Shown: positions 8,743 to 25,197 of the stretch, piece by piece
How positions within the stretch are numbered: the first letter of the stretch is position 1
Layout of the letters: every line of letters begins with the position of its first letter
Source of the DNA: a bacterium
GTDB lineage: Bacteria > Zixibacteria > MSB-5A5 > WJJR01
Assembly (NCBI GenBank): GCA_035559435.1
Contig: DATMBC010000100.1
Coordinates: 1 to 44,011 of the forward strand
Reading direction: 5' to 3'
DNA: 44,011 nt
Made by a program: the position numbers and the translations under genes
The notes under the pieces: generated by a model
What the model saw: the letters and a program-made list of their open reading frames with translations, nothing else
Told to the model about the DNA's origin: nothing
The model's database searches: none

Positions 8743-8748
8743 CGCGCC

Positions 8749-8835
8749 GGAGAGGTGCCGGAGCGGTTGAACGGGGCGGTCTCGAAAACCGTTAACCTTT
8801 CACGAGGTTCGAGGGTTCGAATCCCTCCCTCTCCG
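8749..8835 (+). tRNA. tRNA-Ser(CGA)
   Basis: An 87-nt class II tRNA. The acceptor stem pairs 8749-8755 (GGAGAGG) with 8828-8834 (CCTCTCC), and the discriminator is G8835. The anticodon loop CTCGAAA gives anticodon CGA. A long variable arm pairs AACCT with AGGTT, and the T arm is GAGGG-TTCGAAT-CCCTC. CCA is not encoded. The 3' end is the apparent integration site of the following island, and the tRNA itself stays intact. Confidence 0.95.
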
Positions 8836-8837
8836 AT
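8822..8837 (+). repeat. Attachment site, left copy (tRNA 3' end)
   Basis: The 16-mer TCCCTCCCTCTCCGAT covers the last bases of tRNA-Ser plus two flanking bases. It recurs exactly at 21731-21746, and a 14-base core recurs at 13579-13592. All copies are in the same orientation. Confidence 0.75.
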
Positions 8838-8978: not shown

Positions 8979-11114
8979 CTAAATCGAGATGAGGTACTTC
9001 AGTTTCACCGCAAAAACCCGCTGTCGCGGCTGATAATTGCCGTCCTCGCGTCTTTGGTAGTCGTTGAACGCCAGATACAGCCAACTCTTATTGGCGAAGT
9101 TGTATGAGAACGCCCAACCCAGTCGGAATGAGAGCAACCCATCGCTCTTGGTCACCGGAATCTCCACATAGAGTCTCGTGTTCATTCCGTCCGTGATCGC
9201 CCAATCGGTGCCGGGGCGAAAGCGCAACGTCACTTCCTCCACTCCGCCCGCCGGGCCGCGTTCGACCCAGGAGGAGCCATTGAAATAGGCAGAATTGCGC
9301 TTCGAGAACCTCCAGGAAGTGTACCAATCGCCGTAATCGCTGCGCCCGAAATGGCCACGGGCATAGTTGTACTCGTACACGGAGTAGTACGACAGCGAGA
9401 CCCAAGCCCGCCGCGACGGATCCGACGACAGCGACACGCTCAGCGCCCTGGGGTTGTACGAGCCGAACAATTCGCGCTCGCGGCCGATCCGGCCATTGAG
9501 GACCGCCCCCCAGTTGTTGCGGAACGACGCCTCGAGCGTCGCAATGTAACTGGTGGAGTAACGACTCTCGCCGTATTCGCGGCTGACGTCGGCGGTCAGA
9601 CGCGCACTGCCGTAGACGATGGTGCCCGAGTCGCTGATCAAAGTCGGTCCCGCCGAAAGCGAGTACCGTCGCAGGCCATACCATGGCACAAACCCGATCT
9701 GCGACACATCAAACCTATCGCCAATGATCGTGGCGTATGCGCTGACCGAAAAGGCGCGGGCAAAGTAGCCAAAGTAGGACTTGGCCGCCCAATCCGAAGT
9801 ACCAAGGTATGTGCTGCGCGCCACCTGAGTGGTGAACTGCAACGTTGCCGTCGACACTGTCCCGTCCAGGGACAACACGTTGTTATCGACCGAATCCGTA
9901 AACTTGCCCGCCGCCATGACCGCCCCGGTGATCGGTGTCGCAAACTGGTGGTTCCAGCGGGCAACCCCAAAGCCCGCGCGCGGCTCGCGACCCAATCCCG
10001 AAAACCCGTCGTACGTCTTTTCTCCCGTCAGGGCTCCCAACGCGGCGATTTCTTCGTTCTGCCACTTCATCGTCATTCGAAGGCCCGCATCAAGCGGGAC
10101 CTCCGTGCCATCCGGCAGCTTCTGCCCGATCTGGCGCGAGTAGAACACCTGCAACATGTCGGCCACGACACCGCCGCTCGGCCGGAAGAATTCCTGTCCC
10201 TCGACGAAGAAAGGGCGCTTCTCACGAAAATAGAGGCTGTACTTTGACAGATTGAGGGCGAATGGATCGGCCTCAACCTGCGAGAAGTCCGAATTGACGG
10301 TCGACTGAAGCCGGGCATACGAAGTGATCGCCCAGTTGAGATCCAACGCCGGCTTCCATGTTTCCGATCGCTCGTCCAAGTATTTCTCGGTGCGATAAAA
10401 ACCCTGCGGGTAGATCTCGATCCCGCACGCCCGCACCACAGGCTTGAGTCCAGTCAGGGTACGGAACCCAGAGACTCTCAACCCTTCGTTCAGACGAACG
10501 GGCGTCGCGAAAGCCAATTCCCCACTCAGCGGGATCGCGCGCTCCAAATTGAAGCCCCATTCTTCCTTCTTGCGATCGTATCGAAGCGTCGACCAGGGGA
10601 TCCGAATCTCGACGGTATACCCAGCGGAGTCCCGCGTGACCGCGCTTTCAAAGCGGCCATCCCAATCGGCATTCGACTCCTTGCCATCGGCGGACACAAT
10701 CTCATCCGCCTGGACGCCGGCGCAATTGACGGAAAAGCGATATGCCGTGCGGCGGTCATGAAATGTGTCAAGGAAGACACTGACATAGTCCCCCTCGTGA
10801 CCGTCGCGGTATCCGGGACGGCAGTCCGGCGTTCGCCCATTGGTCCCGCAACGCAGAGCGAAACAAAGAGCTTGCTGGGTCTGCATGACGTAGGCAACGG
10901 TGGGCTCGGAAACCGGAGCGCCTTCGCGCGGCTGGACCTGATAGAATTCGACAATCGAATCTGCGCCCTGCCAGGCACTTTCAAGAATTCCGTCAACGAC
11001 AACAGGCGTCGCCACGAACTTCACATGTGTCGTGTTGTCTGCAAGAGCCGCCGTCCGGCACAGGACAGGAACGATCAGCGCGCCCGCGATACTAACGTAG
11101 CGAAGCCAGCGCAT
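8979..11114 (-). CDS. DUF5916/CBM9-like outer-membrane protein
   Basis: A 711-residue exported protein. The signal peptide is at residues 1-25 (cleavage after AALA). A carbohydrate-binding-family-9-like domain covers about residues 35-220 (VDGILESAWQGA, then GDYVSVFLDTF). The DUF5916 hallmark follows at about 277-310 (DFSQVEADPFALNLSKY, then REKRPFFVEG). The C-terminal 400 residues are rich in alternating aromatic strands and end in KLKYLISI, as expected of an outer-membrane beta-barrel. The start at 11114 has GGAGG upstream and overlaps the redoxin gene by 23 bases. It is last in a four-gene operon. The function of DUF5916 is not established; surface binding or export is inferred. Confidence 0.85.
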   Translation of the reverse strand: MRWLRYVSIAGALIVPVLCRTAALADNTTHVKFVATPVVVDGILESAWQGADSIVEFYQVQPREGAPVSEPTVAYVMQTQQALCFALRCGTNGRTPDCRPGYRDGHEGDYVSVFLDTFHDRRTAYRFSVNCAGVQADEIVSADGKESNADWDGRFESAVTRDSAGYTVEIRIPWSTLRYDRKKEEWGFNLERAIPLSGELAFATPVRLNEGLRVSGFRTLTGLKPVVRACGIEIYPQGFYRTEKYLDERSETWKPALDLNWAITSYARLQSTVNSDFSQVEADPFALNLSKYSLYFREKRPFFVEGQEFFRPSGGVVADMLQVFYSRQIGQKLPDGTEVPLDAGLRMTMKWQNEEIAALGALTGEKTYDGFSGLGREPRAGFGVARWNHQFATPITGAVMAAGKFTDSVDNNVLSLDGTVSTATLQFTTQVARSTYLGTSDWAAKSYFGYFARAFSVSAYATIIGDRFDVSQIGFVPWYGLRRYSLSAGPTLISDSGTIVYGSARLTADVSREYGESRYSTSYIATLEASFRNNWGAVLNGRIGRERELFGSYNPRALSVSLSSDPSRRAWVSLSYYSVYEYNYARGHFGRSDYGDWYTSWRFSKRNSAYFNGSSWVERGPAGGVEEVTLRFRPGTDWAITDGMNTRLYVEIPVTKSDGLLSFRLGWAFSYNFANKSWLYLAFNDYQRREDGNYQPRQRVFAVKLKYLISI

Positions 11115-11643
11115 CTGAGAGGTCCTCCCTGAACTCCTCCGCCGCGTTGGCCGATAGCCGCGCTGGGTCCGCCCACCGGATGACACCATCCTGCGACACC
11201 AGAACCTTCAGAGGCATTACGCGCAGCCCCATGCTCTCAGGCAATGTAAAGGTCGTGTCCAGAAACGTCGGCATGGAGAACTCCATGCGTTCGGTCCAGT
11301 CCCAGTATTCTGAGGGTGACGGCCACGTGCCAATGCCAAATACCGGAATCCCCGCCTCCTGGGTGACATGGTTCCAGAGAGATCGTTCCTCCAAACATGG
11401 GGGACAATCGGCGGGCGAAAAGAACACGAAGAGACTTGCGGGGGAATTGTCCGTCACTTCGCGAAGGCTCCAGGAGCGCCCTGTGCGATCGATAACGGAA
11501 ACCGCCGGCAGGGCGGCGCGTGAGACGTATTCCTTTAGCAACGGCTTCTGTCCTGGATTTGACAGTGAGAACTGTTTGGCCAACAGCAGCGCATTGACGA
11601 TCAATAGCGCAATGATGGCGACTTTGTACCGTGTTGTGCTCAT
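11092..11643 (-). CDS. Membrane-anchored thioredoxin-like redoxin
   Basis: A 183-residue protein with an N-terminal hydrophobic anchor (residues 7-24) and an AhpC/TSA-TlpA-like fold. FVFFSPADCPPC places the redox CxxC at residues 80 and 83, and PLKVLVSQDGVIRW supplies the cis-proline-type strand region. It would act in the periplasm on thiols. The ATG overlaps the stop of the beta-propeller gene (ATGA, 11640-11643), so the two are translationally coupled. With a four-cysteine secreted peptide at the head of the operon, a role in forming or reducing that peptide's thiols is a natural inference. Confidence 0.82.
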   Translation of the reverse strand: MSTTRYKVAIIALLIVNALLLAKQFSLSNPGQKPLLKEYVSRAALPAVSVIDRTGRSWSLREVTDNSPASLFVFFSPADCPPCLEERSLWNHVTQEAGIPVFGIGTWPSPSEYWDWTERMEFSMPTFLDTTFTLPESMGLRVMPLKVLVSQDGVIRWADPARLSANAAEEFREDLSDALASLR

Positions 11644-12746
11644 GGGACGATTCTCTCCCTGACGTGAGTCTTCAACAATCGGTCGCCTTTGAGCGTCAGA
11701 AAGTAAATGGCGCCATCGCGATCAACACCGATCGGCCACGCATCCGAAGGGACTCCCTCGGCAACCAACTCTCCATCCTTCGTGAACACATCGATGATGA
11801 ACGGGGCGGACACTCCCGGAACCTTGCCGTTCGACAGCGACGTCCGAAGCACTCGATCCTGGTCGATGCAGGTGATGCCGATGGGGCGGGTCCATGCCGT
11901 CCAGTAACTCGGAGGCGGCGACTCCAACTCAAAGATCGGCGGCGAAAGCACCGGAGGACCGACAAACCAAGTTGGGCTGGCGCCGAAGGACCTGACTTCA
12001 CGTCCGCTCTGGTCATAGACGTGGACCGTCGGATCACACGTGAAGGTTTGAAATATTGTGCCGGCTGTGTCGACATCAAACGTGGCGGCAACCCCGACCC
12101 ACAGATTCCGTTCGAACGCAATGGAAGGCGTGTAGGCCAACGCCAGCAAATGATTGCCGGAAGGCGTGTAGAGATTGCAGTGATGGCCGGCGTTGAGCCG
12201 TTGCTTGCGGTCCAGGCGCAGGTTGGCACAAAGAATGTTTCCATGCGACGCCAAGCGCATGGTCGACGGAACATCCTCATCCGCGCCAAACAAGAAAGAA
12301 CTGACGACATCCCCATGTCTCGCGAACATGCTTAGCCGCCGGTTTCCGGCATCGCTGACCATCAACCGACCGCTACGATCAAAGGCAACTGCGACAGGAA
12401 TATTGACCTGGTCCGGATTGCGCCCTTGCCGCGCCACCGTCTTGACAAATGTCTGCCAGTCAAAACCCTCAAGCGCCTCGCCCGACTCGTGTGATGCCAA
12501 CGCAGCGCCCGCGGTGTGTTTGACCGCCACAGATTGGTGTCCCGAATTGAGTTCATAGGTCACAACTTCATGACGGGTCGGAACTATGAGCGCGATTCGA
12601 TCTCCCTCTGGAGCCACGGTACAAAAACTCCACTCGCTCCAGCCGTGCTCGCCCGACACCTGTATCGACGGCGGCAACGTGTACGATGTATCGATCCTGA
12701 ATGCGTTGCCAAACGGAATAGCGGCGATCATCAAGAATACCAACAC
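11640..12746 (-). CDS. Secreted six-bladed beta-propeller (NHL-like) protein
   Basis: About 368 residues. The GTG at 12746 is taken as start because AAGGAGG ends six bases before it, and it yields a clean signal segment (LVFLMIAAIPFGNA). The longer ATG at 12818 has no ribosome site and adds 24 residues encoded over a hairpin. NHL-like blades are visible (VNIPVAVAFDRSGRLMVSDA, then GNRRLSMF; IGVDRDGAIYFLTLKGDRLL near the end). Such propellers bind ligands or peptides in the periplasm. Similar 6-bladed propellers occur beside small leader-bearing peptides in Bacteroidetes, which fits the peptide gene upstream. Confidence 0.78.
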   Translation of the reverse strand: MLVFLMIAAIPFGNAFRIDTSYTLPPSIQVSGEHGWSEWSFCTVAPEGDRIALIVPTRHEVVTYELNSGHQSVAVKHTAGAALASHESGEALEGFDWQTFVKTVARQGRNPDQVNIPVAVAFDRSGRLMVSDAGNRRLSMFARHGDVVSSFLFGADEDVPSTMRLASHGNILCANLRLDRKQRLNAGHHCNLYTPSGNHLLALAYTPSIAFERNLWVGVAATFDVDTAGTIFQTFTCDPTVHVYDQSGREVRSFGASPTWFVGPPVLSPPIFELESPPPSYWTAWTRPIGITCIDQDRVLRTSLSNGKVPGVSAPFIIDVFTKDGELVAEGVPSDAWPIGVDRDGAIYFLTLKGDRLLKTHVRERIVP

Positions 12747-12784
12747 GGCCGGCCTCCTTGTTGAGGACGAAACCACCGAGGCGT

Positions 12785-12803
12785 CCGGGGGCATGCACCC
12801 CGG
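12785..12803 (-). repeat. Intercistronic hairpin after the peptide gene
   Basis: CCGGGG (12785-12790) and CCCCGG (12798-12803) form an inverted repeat with a 7-base loop in the 87-base gap between the peptide and propeller genes. There is no U-run, so it is more likely an mRNA-stabilising or partially terminating element. Such an element would raise the peptide-to-downstream ratio. Confidence 0.45.
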
Positions 12804-12833
12804 AGCCCCGTGGCGCATTACGCCGATTTCACT

Positions 12834-13052
12834 TCACTTCTGAACATCGTCGTACTGGCAAACACACGGGCCACGCAACCGTGGGCAACGGCAGCCGACG
12901 ATTTGGCCACCCTGATTGATCACATCGCCGGCAGAAAACGTTGATCCCCCATCGGTGGCCCTCGCTGTCGTGGCTGTCAACAGCGCAACCCCATCCAGCA
13001 CGATGATGCTCAGCACCAAGAGAACACCGAGCACGACTCCGGCCTTCTTCAT
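12834..13052 (-). CDS. Small secreted cysteine-rich peptide (CxC-x6-CxC)
   Basis: A 72-residue protein, family unrecognised. Residues 1-32 form a clear Sec signal peptide (MKKAG start, long hydrophobic core, cleavage after ARA), leaving a mature peptide of about 40 residues. The mature part is glycine-rich and then has C54-x-C56 and C63-x-C65 (CRCPRLRGPCVC), a symmetrical arrangement suited to a metal or Fe-S site or to two disulfides. The start is excellent: AAGGAGGTGA lies just upstream of the ATG at 13052. It is the first gene of the operon with propeller, redoxin and DUF5916 barrel, so those proteins may mature, bind or export it. Confidence 0.72.
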   Translation of the reverse strand: MKKAGVVLGVLLVLSIIVLDGVALLTATTARATDGGSTFSAGDVINQGGQIVGCRCPRLRGPCVCQYDDVQK

Positions 13053-13102
13053 TCGCTTTCACCTCCTTCCTGTGAAGCGATCAAGAATCGCGATGCCTAG
13101 AC

Positions 13103-14504: not shown

Positions 14505-14600
14505 CAAGACGGGAAAGACGCGGCTCCCTTCCTGGCCAAGTTCCGAAAACGGATCGCGGCGGGAAAGCGCAAATGCGATTCTGCGCCCCTTCGTGCGATC

Positions 14601-14629
14601 TTGCGCGTGGCCCCGCCCGTACGTATCTT
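14601..14629 (+). promoter_or_regulatory. Promoter of fluoride riboswitch 1
   Basis: TTGCGC (14601-14606) and TATCTT (14624-14629) with a 17-base spacer. The predicted start is near 14636, a few bases before the aptamer. Confidence 0.45.
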
Positions 14630-14641
14630 GATCAGGACTCA

Positions 14642-14685
14642 GGGCAATGGAGTCTGCCCAAACTGCCTTTGGCTGATGACTCCTT
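14642..14685 (+). promoter_or_regulatory. Fluoride riboswitch 1 (crcB motif), before the dynamin gene
   Basis: The sequence keeps the fluoride aptamer plan: GGGC-AATGGAGTC-TGCCC, the linker AAAC, TGCC-TTT-GGC, then TGATGACTCC. GGAGTC (14649-14654) pairs with GACTCC (14678-14683). The layout and the AAACTGCC segment are very close to the Thermotoga petrophila aptamer as I recall it. CTCCT (14680-14684), part of the aptamer's 3' strand, is also complementary to the ribosome site AGGAG (14708-14712). This suggests translational control of the GTG start at 14723. Confidence 0.85.
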
Positions 14686-14722
14686 GACGCCGTCTTGCGA
14701 CGCCGAGAGGAGCACAGCTGTT

Positions 14723-16570
14723 GTGCAATCCCCGCAGTCCGACCCAAACCGAATAAGCAGCAGCATTCCCGCTCAGTCGTGGGGCGATGAAATGTCCTCC
14801 CATCAGGCGCGGGCCACGGCGAATCTCCTGCGCGAATCAATCGATTGCCTGGCGGGTCTGGGGGGAGACTTTGGGAGTGCGATGGCCCGAATCGGGGAAC
14901 TGCATGACCGCTTGGTCGGCGGCGTGTTCCACCTTGCAGTGCTGGGCCAGTTCAAGCGCGGAAAGAGTGCGTTGATCAACGCACTGATTGGCGACACGGT
15001 CCTCCCAACCGGGATTGTGCCCGTGACCGCGGTTCCAACGCTTGTACGATCGGGTTCCGATTTCCGTCTCACGATTGAATACGAAGACGGTCAGAGGACC
15101 GAGACGGTTAGCGTCTCGTGCAGCGAAGAGGCACGCAATAGACTGACCGATTTGGTGAGTGAGACAGGCAATCCGGAAAATCGCCGGCGCATCTCGCGCG
15201 TGACGGTTGTCTACCCGGAAGCGCTCTTGGCCGACGGGGTCGTGGTGATCGACACACCGGGCATCGGCTCGACGCTGCGCCACAACACGGAGACCGCCGT
15301 CAATTTCCTTCCCCATTGCGACGCAGGGATATTCGTACTGTCCGCTGATCTCCCGCCGACTGAGGCGGAGGTTCAGTATCTGGCCAGGGTACGGCCGCAG
15401 ATTCCCCGGCTCTTTCTGGTCCTCAACAAGATTGACAGAGTCACGTCAGAGGAGTTAAGCACAGCCCTCGCCTTTCTTCGAAGGACGCTCGAACAACAGA
15501 GCGCACTCAACAAGGACACGCCGGTGTTTTGCCTCTCCGCAACAATGGGATTGGACGCTCGAGCCAGGAGGGACAAGGCGCGCTGGCGGGAAAGTGGCGT
15601 CGCCGACCTGGCAGAGCATTTGATCCGCTTTCTCGACACAGAGAAAAGGCCGGCGCTTCTCGACGCCGTGAGGTTGAAATTCTCGAGTGTCTTGTTGGAT
15701 ACTCTCCTCCGGCTCCGGTTGACCACCAAGAGCCTGGAAATGCCTCTCGCGCAACTCGGATCCCGCCTTCAAATGTTTGCGGAGGAACTTGAGAAGATCC
15801 AAGTGGAGCGCATTTCGACCGCGGATCAGCTGGCCGGGGATCAGAAGCGTGTCATCGATGAGCTCGAGGCGCAGGCGGAGACCCTTCGGAAGGAATCGCG
15901 AGTCCACATCAGAACCATCCTTCAAAACGTCGCGCCCTTCGGCGCCGCGTCGGGTCAACAGGAGTCCTCCGAAGCCGGTCTTTCGCGTGCAATCTCAGAT
16001 TACTTTGAGCAATGCTTTGTCCAGACGATGGAACGACTCCGCGCGCGCATCGGAGAGGTGCTCGGTCGACACGATGAGAAACTCAACGGGATCATCGAAC
16101 GGATCCGGACGGCAGCCAGTGACTCATTCGGGATCGCGCACACCGAGGCGCCGGGCGGCGGGGCACTTCGATTGACACGGTTGCCCTACTGGATCAGTCA
16201 GGAGTGGGTCGCCGGTCTGACCGCGATGCAGAAACACCGATGGGAGAGTTTCATTCCGCATGAGTATAGACAAGGGCAACGCGCCAAGCGTCTTGAGAGA
16301 GAGATAGAGACGCTGGTTGTAACCAATGTCGAGAATCTCCGCTGGGTGCTCCTCCAGAGCATCAACGAGACATTTCGCATCTACGGCGACTCCCTTGACG
16401 AGCGCTTTGCCGACACCCTGGCCGCCACACATGACGCCATCAGGTCAACGTTGCAGCGCCGCCGCGAGAATGTCGCGATGGTTGAACGGGAGCTGCCTTT
16501 GATGAAGCAGGCGGAGGAGCGTCTGCAGAACATCCGGAATGTGTTGACGGGCCTCGGCGGGAAACTGTAG
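14723..16570 (+). CDS. Dynamin-like GTPase under fluoride riboswitch control
   Basis: About 615 residues. Bacterial dynamin-type GTPase domain: G1 GQFKRGKS (residues 75-82), G3 DTPGIGS (from about 177) and G4 NKID (235-238). A long helical C-terminal region follows (LQMFAEELEKIQVERIS, LEREIETLVV), the usual stalk. A hydrophobic paddle is not obvious. The GTG at 14723 is chosen because AGGAG at 14708-14712 sits ten bases upstream and can pair with the riboswitch. ATG 14792, with only GGGG upstream, is the alternative. Such proteins remodel or repair membranes. Control by a fluoride aptamer suggests a membrane-protective role during fluoride stress (inference). Confidence 0.85.
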   Translation: MQSPQSDPNRISSSIPAQSWGDEMSSHQARATANLLRESIDCLAGLGGDFGSAMARIGELHDRLVGGVFHLAVLGQFKRGKSALINALIGDTVLPTGIVPVTAVPTLVRSGSDFRLTIEYEDGQRTETVSVSCSEEARNRLTDLVSETGNPENRRRISRVTVVYPEALLADGVVVIDTPGIGSTLRHNTETAVNFLPHCDAGIFVLSADLPPTEAEVQYLARVRPQIPRLFLVLNKIDRVTSEELSTALAFLRRTLEQQSALNKDTPVFCLSATMGLDARARRDKARWRESGVADLAEHLIRFLDTEKRPALLDAVRLKFSSVLLDTLLRLRLTTKSLEMPLAQLGSRLQMFAEELEKIQVERISTADQLAGDQKRVIDELEAQAETLRKESRVHIRTILQNVAPFGAASGQQESSEAGLSRAISDYFEQCFVQTMERLRARIGEVLGRHDEKLNGIIERIRTAASDSFGIAHTEAPGGGALRLTRLPYWISQEWVAGLTAMQKHRWESFIPHEYRQGQRAKRLEREIETLVVTNVENLRWVLLQSINETFRIYGDSLDERFADTLAATHDAIRSTLQRRRENVAMVERELPLMKQAEERLQNIRNVLTGLGGKL

Positions 16571-23803: not shown

Positions 23804-23955
23804 GCCATCCTCCGGTTCGGTGCGCCCAAGGTGCGCAAGCGCGCCGGATGAATCCACGCTTTTGATGCCGAAACCTGTGGCCCGCGGTCGGGAAGAAATC
23901 GTGGGAATAACGGCGCAGCTCGTTGGTAGAATCCCTCGAAGCAAAGGAGGGAGTC

Positions 23956-25197
23956 ATGAAGCAGTTGATTGTCATCCTCTTGTCCGTCTGTCTCTTGGCC
24001 GCCTGCGGCCGGGAGCAAGTTGCCGGCACATCCGCCAACGGAGACAATCCCCCCGTCCCTGCCGGCCAGATTGACCCCCGTCTGGCCGACGCCACCAACC
24101 GTTTTGGATTCGAGTTGCTGTCCACTTTGCGCGTCGGCGGGGCCGACCAGACGCTGATCTCGCCGGCCAGCGTCGCCATGGCGCTGGCGATGACGTATAA
24201 CGGCGCTGACGGAACCACCGCCGCCGAGATGGCCGATGTTCTGCAGGTCACCGGTATGACCCGCGAGGAATTGAGCGCCGCGCATCGGGCGTTGCGCGAG
24301 TTTTTGACCGACCCGAAGTCCGATGTCACGCTCGACATCGCCAATTCACTGTGGGCGCGTCTCGGCCTGCCCTTCGATTCGGCCTTCCTGGCGTTGAACA
24401 TCGAGGCATTCGATGCCCGCCTCACCGAGTTGGATTTCGACCAACCGGCGGCGGCGGACTCGATCAATGGCTGGGTTGAGCGCAAGACGCGCGGCAAGAT
24501 TGACAAGATCATTGAGCGGATCGACCCCAGCACCATTCTCTACCTCATCAACGCCATCTACTTCAAGGGGACCTGGACCTACAGATTCGATTCCACCAAA
24601 AGCTACGAACGCGAATTCCACTTTCCCGCCGGCGCCCGGGAGCGGCGGTTCATGTGGCAGGAAGGCGAGTTCGATTATTACGAGGATGAGACCATTCAGG
24701 CGGTGCGTCTGCCCTACGGCAAGTCGCAACGGTTCGGGATGTATGTCGTGTTGCCGCGCGCCGATACCGGACTGGCCGCCTTTCTCAACACCCTGACGGC
24801 GGAGCGCTGGCGCCAGTTGACCGGCCGGCTCGCCGACCGTAAGGGGGAAATCCACTTGCCGCGATTCAAGCTCGAATGGGAGAAGGACCTGGTCGGCCCG
24901 CTGCGCACGATGGGCATGCCCTCGGCGTTCGAACCAAATCGAGCCGAGTTCACACGCATGATCGATTTGCCGGATGCCAACGCCTTCATCAGCAAGGTGC
25001 TGCACAAGACGATTATGGAAGTCAACGAGGAAGGAACGGTGGCGGCCGCGGTCACCGCCGTCGAGGTCGGCATCACGTCGGACATCCAGCCGGTCGGTCA
25101 CTTCCGGATGCTGGTGGATCGCCCCTTCTTCTGCGCCATCGCCGACCGCGAATCGGGGCTGATCCTGTTTATGGGAAGTGTCAACGACTTTGATTAA
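23956..25197 (+). CDS. Lipoprotein serpin (serine protease inhibitor)
   Basis: A 413-residue protein. A lipoprotein signal peptide ends in the lipobox LLAAC (Cys17), so it is tethered to a membrane on the outer side. The serpin fold is complete: SPASVAMALAMTYNGADG, YLINAIYFKGTWTYRF, FGMYVVLPRA and the C-terminal VDRPFFCAIADRESGLILFMG. The reactive-centre loop starts near residue 355 (EVNEEGTVAAAVTAVEV). It keeps the small-residue hinge of inhibitory serpins, so it should trap proteases. AAAGGAGGGAG upstream fixes the ATG at 23956. The target protease is unknown; defence against external proteases is plausible. Confidence 0.95.
   Translation: MKQLIVILLSVCLLAACGREQVAGTSANGDNPPVPAGQIDPRLADATNRFGFELLSTLRVGGADQTLISPASVAMALAMTYNGADGTTAAEMADVLQVTGMTREELSAAHRALREFLTDPKSDVTLDIANSLWARLGLPFDSAFLALNIEAFDARLTELDFDQPAAADSINGWVERKTRGKIDKIIERIDPSTILYLINAIYFKGTWTYRFDSTKSYEREFHFPAGARERRFMWQEGEFDYYEDETIQAVRLPYGKSQRFGMYVVLPRADTGLAAFLNTLTAERWRQLTGRLADRKGEIHLPRFKLEWEKDLVGPLRTMGMPSAFEPNRAEFTRMIDLPDANAFISKVLHKTIMEVNEEGTVAAAVTAVEVGITSDIQPVGHFRMLVDRPFFCAIADRESGLILFMGSVNDFD

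Follow-up and report, generated by a model that had tools for sequence, protein, structure and literature searches.

Four genes lie on the minus strand between positions 13052 and 8979 of the window, which is the whole stretch of 44,011 nucleotides that was analyzed. The first gene (12834 to 13052) encodes an exported peptide of 72 aa, and it is followed by genes encoding a secreted NHL-type six-bladed beta-propeller (11640 to 12746), a membrane-anchored TlpA/ResA-like redoxin (11092 to 11643), and a DUF5916 protein (8979 to 11114) whose N-terminal domain is CBM9 and which probably includes an outer-membrane beta-barrel. The last three genes run into one another, with 4 bp shared by the end of the propeller gene and the redoxin gene and 23 bp shared by the redoxin and DUF5916 genes; these overlaps, and the recurrence of the block in other genomes, bear out the operon with overlapping downstream genes proposed in a preliminary description of this DNA. 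The near-perfect ribosome site that had been reported ahead of the lead secreted peptide gene was found to be an exact Shine-Dalgarno sequence, AAGGAGGTGA (plus strand: TCACCTCCTT; 13059 to 13068, minus strand), separated from the ATG by a spacer of 6 nt, and strong ribosome sites also precede the homologous peptide genes in the genomes labeled G006 and G044. The signal sequence of the peptide ends in ATARA, and the mature part of about 40 aa contains four cysteines and no tryptophan in the window sequence.

The propeller gene has a GTG start with AAGGAGG upstream, and the start at 12818 given in the mechanical ORF list was rejected in favor of this GTG at 12746, with which the starts of the homologues agree. 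A structural model of the propeller built from eight sequences (mean pLDDT, 77) showed six blades, the last one closed by the N-terminal strand. NHL domains were the top fold and sequence matches, which places the protein among the NHL-type six-bladed propellers; the Pfam NHL model gave no match above its cut-off for the window propeller, and the Bacteroides DUF4221 propeller 3s9j was among the fold matches. The redoxin has a single N-terminal membrane helix and a CPPC active site (residues 80 to 83; codons at 11395 to 11406, minus strand), resembles TlpA, ResA, and CcmG, and belongs with the TlpA/ResA-like proteins, with an AhpC-TSA match of 28.1 bits against a cut-off of 26. A CPxC motif and the N-terminal helix were present in all six operon redoxins, and the CxxC and cis-Pro regions were conserved among the operon copies. 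The CPPC motif does not separate an oxidase from a reductase.

The DUF5916 protein starts at the conserved ATG at 11114 rather than at 11189 as in the ORF list, and its signal sequence ends in AxA. The window protein matched CBM9_1 (E=1.4e-10) and DUF5916 (PF19313; E=1.8e-14), the latter with 53.8 bits over residues 265 to 358 against a curated cut-off of 22.6 bits, so that the earlier naming of the fourth gene holds; the homologue in G087 scored 79.2 bits. In the structural model, about 24 to 26 long antiparallel strands filled the C-terminal two thirds, from residue 256 on, and the fold matches of this poor, low-confidence model were all outer-membrane barrels, including the barrel of the Mtr complex. 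The barrel is considered only likely because the mean pLDDT of the model was 48.7. We know of no function for the DUF5916 family, and with the set of partners that the present locus gives it, its role becomes open to testing. Elsewhere in the genome from which the window comes (G000, contig C71), two paralogues from another DUF5916 subfamily lie next to each other.

The next plus-strand feature beyond the operon is a tRNA-Ser gene (8748 to 8836). A dynamin-like GTPase gene (14573 to 16570, plus strand; Dynamin_N E=5.5e-27) lies upstream of the operon on the opposite strand, and a putative bacterial serpin gene, recognized by the appearance of its sequence, lies at 23923 to 25197 on the plus strand. 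The suggestion that the operon is carried on an island was not upheld. The GC content of the operon (57.6 to 59.3%) fell within the range of the neighboring genes (mean, 63.1; standard deviation, 3.6), and the nearest homologues of its genes came from the same family, a pattern expected from vertical inheritance with loss. The neighboring MobA and TauE genes were traced in congeners and no empty site was found; none was readable because local synteny was not kept.

The operon was compared across 132 genomes of one phylum (Zixiibacteriota), largely represented by fragmented assemblies; the assembly containing the window comprises 3.0 Mb in 106 contigs. The full four-gene block was present in the same order in the window, G006, G044, and G087, in keeping with the expectation from the preliminary description that the four genes co-occur in other neighborhoods. 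In addition, the block was divided between two contigs in G101 and ended with the contig in G106, and G107 had two copies: in one, the redoxin and DUF5916 genes were on another contig, and in the other, a secreted protein of 457 aa (LNCPDCDENYF...) encoded by the fourth gene (locus L074, 2675 to 4048) took the place of DUF5916; this protein had no Pfam match above the cut-off. In G096, the DUF5916 gene directly follows the peptide gene with nothing between, and a search of this genome found no propeller or redoxin of the operon type. DUF5916 pieces in G090 and G058 end at contig edges, with the upstream genes outside the contigs. With the exception of G096, the peptide gene heads the same block wherever the contigs allow a check. 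The block proteins are 33 to 60% identical in other genomes, and gene order and overlaps are alike in several genera belonging to three families. Full-length propellers, redoxins, and operon-type DUF5916 proteins, the last forming a subfamily with at least 797 bits compared with 256 for the next full candidate, occurred in the same few of the 132 genomes as the peptide, and Fisher tests that ignored phylogeny gave P values of about 1e-9 to 1e-10 for this co-occurrence. These comparisons of gene content and order support the view that the four genes constitute a real, co-inherited operon.

The peptide profile matched in 8 of the 132 genomes. Weak matches in G001, G003, G007, and others were rejected as chance, with no propeller, redoxin, or related DUF5916 gene adjoining, as was a match in G089 (L079) that sits within an unrelated locus. 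Alignment of nine homologues showed a conserved core, GQIVGCRCPRLRGPCVC (12858 to 12908, minus strand), with an invariant G, GC-x-CP, and G-x-C-x-C; the motif is CxCPxxxGxCxC, the cysteine spacing is CxC-x6-CxC, and the invariant residues are A41, G42, G49, G53, C54, C56, P57, G61, C63, and C65. Conservation of the peptide frame, which had been named beforehand, beside co-occurrence of the four genes, as a test on which the proposal should stand or fall, was evident: for the closest pair (G106/G107), dN was 0.28 and dS was 0.97, a ratio of about 0.29, and all four cysteines were invariant in the nine peptides. The propeller gave a ratio of about 0.18 for the same pair. The proposal of an exported peptide that is under purifying selection and whose cysteines do not shift is supported.

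Further loci were reached through distant redoxin matches, and the adjoining open reading frames were put through a single fixed filter that asked for a basic start, a hydrophobic segment, at least two cysteines after residue 24, a ribosome site, and no second membrane segment. An exported Cys peptide on the same strand was found at 14 of 22 redoxin loci and at 2 of 50 control loci from the same phylum (P=1e-7); of the two positive controls, one is a propeller-redoxin locus in its own right. A few loci had been seen before the filter took its form, and without those discovery loci the counts were 11 of 17 and 1 of 49. The redoxin-linked peptides are mutually unrelated in sequence and contain 2 to 9 cysteines in unrelated patterns, and among close pairs dN was again lower than dS. 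With mature parts cut by eye, the cysteine count was even in 23 of 26 peptides, or in 12 of 14 after grouping by similarity (P=0.006). The peptide-linked redoxins have no Trp before the CxxC and, in most cases, a membrane helix, and no exported Cys peptide was found at the loci of generic WCxxC redoxins (L176, L180, and L181).

Individual loci of this kind were as follows. In the window's own genome, a locus found later (L206, 2846 to 3781; G000 contig C79) has a second redoxin (CEPC, with a membrane helix) and, after it, a 66-aa exported peptide with eight cysteines. A locus in G131 and three in G016 have a small exported ORF next to a propeller of distant relationship; a redoxin adjoins in all but one of them. 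At L168 (G029), L169 (G040), and L170 (G015), between one and three exported Cys peptides in tandem follow a redoxin, without a propeller. The three G016 loci (L150, L161, and L162), which have a propeller at each and a redoxin at two, share a near-identical leader (MFLRKW...GLLVAAFLVL) with unrelated cores, and the tandem peptides of L168 to L170 likewise have similar leaders and different cores. One 51-aa peptide of the tandem set has CxxxC twice and is alpha-hairpinin-like. At L171 (G011) and the second G044 locus (L188), redoxin-like proteins without CxxC, which may not be thiol oxidoreductases, lie beside GCWGxGxxC peptides. Most redoxin-peptide pairs lack a propeller. The pairing across the phylum implies that the core unit is a redoxin plus an exported Cys peptide, to which the propeller and the outer-membrane protein are additions. 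The link between redoxin and peptide is therefore much stronger than first claimed, recurring across the phylum with unrelated peptides, and the repeated pairing suggests an undescribed maturation route for exported Cys peptides. Gene callers routinely overlook short exported peptides; a redoxin with a single membrane anchor and no Trp before the CxxC served as a genomic handle that exposed new, mutually dissimilar Cys peptides in many genomes of this uncultured phylum.

We favor, at about even confidence, a reading in which the operon matures and handles one small exported four-Cys peptide by means of the redoxin, the propeller, and the DUF5916 protein. Sec export and signal peptidase cleavage would free the mature peptide of about 40 aa, and the CPPC site of the redoxin would set the periplasmic thiol-disulfide state of the CxC...CxC cysteines, most likely by making or rearranging disulfides. 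The constant pairing is most simply explained if each redoxin, once its partner peptide has been exported, acts on that peptide's cysteines. In the blocks, the propeller gene has the peptide gene on one side and the redoxin gene on the other, and its product is plausibly a peptide-binding partner that would bind the peptide or hold it against the redoxin. The DUF5916/CBM9 outer-membrane protein could provide a docking or exit point for the peptide, and the product of the fourth gene, whether DUF5916 or another secreted protein, would plausibly be the outer-membrane partner. Counting against this model are the ambiguity of CPPC as to oxidase or reductase function, the CxxC-less redoxins of G011 and the second G044 locus, the absence of propeller and redoxin from G096, the swapped fourth gene in one G107 copy, and a cysteine spacing that would serve a metal site just as well. 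More tentatively, and with the balance somewhat against it, exported Cys peptides throughout the phylum might each be matured by their own membrane-anchored redoxin, with some lineages adding an NHL propeller and an outer-membrane protein, DUF5916 or another, so that a fixed four-Cys peptide is processed and put on the surface or outside the cell. The operon, the exported conserved peptide, and the redoxin link of the earlier reading stand, and the island is not supported.

The best-surviving alternative, which we consider rather unlikely, is metal handling: after reduction of its cysteines by the redoxin, the peptide would take up Cu, Zn, or Fe in the periplasm, the propeller would pass the metal on, and DUF5916 would form the entry in the outer membrane. 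The four invariant cysteines are symmetrically spaced, and the CxC-x6-CxC arrangement of the window peptide could suit metal binding equally well. TlpA reduces the cysteines of ScoI ahead of metal loading, and the redoxin is TlpA/CcmG-like. There is also a precedent in AztD, a periplasmic propeller that transfers zinc (PMC6689063). However, the even cysteine counts and varied spacings of the other redoxin-linked peptides, with their 2 to 9 cysteines in unrelated patterns, favor disulfides over a single metal site; in addition, the block contains no metal transporter or metal regulator, and the peptide has no invariant His.

A secreted antimicrobial or signaling peptide of the RiPP type that has dedicated means of disulfide maturation, secretion, and display appears improbable. 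The near-identical leader and different cores of the three G016 peptides, the tandem peptides in G029 and G040, and the patchy, lineage-specific occurrence would fit such a product, but the block has no immunity gene, protease, or ABC exporter, and the core motif is kept across families rather than diversifying. Marginally less probable is a periplasmic redox enzyme with the peptide as its small subunit or light chain, the propeller as heavy chain, a MauD-like redoxin, and DUF5916 for substrate entry. The set of peptide, propeller, and redoxin recalls MauA/MauB/MauD, and some redoxins have a weak likeness to MauD, the best scores being 29 bits (E=6.6e-7) for a relative in G029 and 16.7 bits (E=0.004) for the G044 copy; the window peptide, however, has no Trp from which a tryptophylquinone could form, the block has no MauE, MauG, or cytochrome, the propeller is of the six-bladed NHL type rather than the seven-bladed amine dehydrogenase fold, and most redoxin-peptide pairs lack a propeller. 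A chance grouping of unrelated envelope genes under one promoter, to which the lost or replaced parts in G096 and G107 might point, is very improbable given the order and overlaps kept in several genera of three families and the joint absence of the four genes elsewhere.

The literature searched contained no description of the four-gene set, no paper naming DUF5916 or NVEALA, and nothing linking Zixibacteria to ribosomal peptides. The NVEALA peptides of Bacteroidetes (PF14055) are small exported peptides encoded beside a secreted six-bladed propeller. Of the analogy drawn earlier with Bacteroidetes peptide-propeller pairs, only this layout is retained: the window, G006, and G044 peptides had no PF14055 match at E<=1 and no NVEALA motif and thus fall outside the family, and the only match in the window's own genome scored 13.9 bits and lay elsewhere than the operon. 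Methylamine dehydrogenase operons (mauA/mauB/mauD/mauE) likewise combine a small exported Cys subunit, a propeller, and a redoxin. In contrast to them, the present operon has no quinone-forming Trp, which sets it outside that group, no MauE or MauG, and a six-bladed NHL propeller. The MauD model (TIGR02661; equivalog cut-off, 188.6 bits) stays far below its cut-off in the related redoxins and gives no match to the window protein.

NHLRC2 offers another case of a thioredoxin fold working beside an NHL propeller: its thioredoxin-like domain is fused to a six-bladed NHL propeller, with which it forms a shared cleft, and the study reports no conserved bacterial operon (PMC6107167). There, unlike here, both domains belong to a single protein, which has a CCINC motif, and there is no peptide gene. 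In candidate RiPP families of Streptomyces found with decRiPPter, MauE/MauD homologues adjoin Cys-rich precursors with at least 8 Cys (PMC7794033), so that, as here, a redoxin homologue lies by a Cys-rich precursor outside any methylamine pathway; those families are actinobacterial and include MauE, whereas the present operon has no MauE, a peptide with 4 Cys, and propeller and outer-membrane partners. The sublancin operon of Bacillus subtilis (sunA-sunT-bdbA-sunS-bdbB), in which BdbB forms both sublancin disulfides (PMC6391423), resembles the present one, as a glycocin system, in joining a small exported Cys peptide and a thiol-disulfide oxidoreductase in one operon. The conserved block here has no ABC exporter/protease or glycosyltransferase and is accordingly not a member of that group; it belongs to a Gram-negative envelope and has a propeller and DUF5916 in addition, and the two systems would not be expected to be related in sequence. 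A Cys peptide with its own oxidoreductase in one operon is thus already known, and the wider class of redoxin-linked peptides is the more interesting part.
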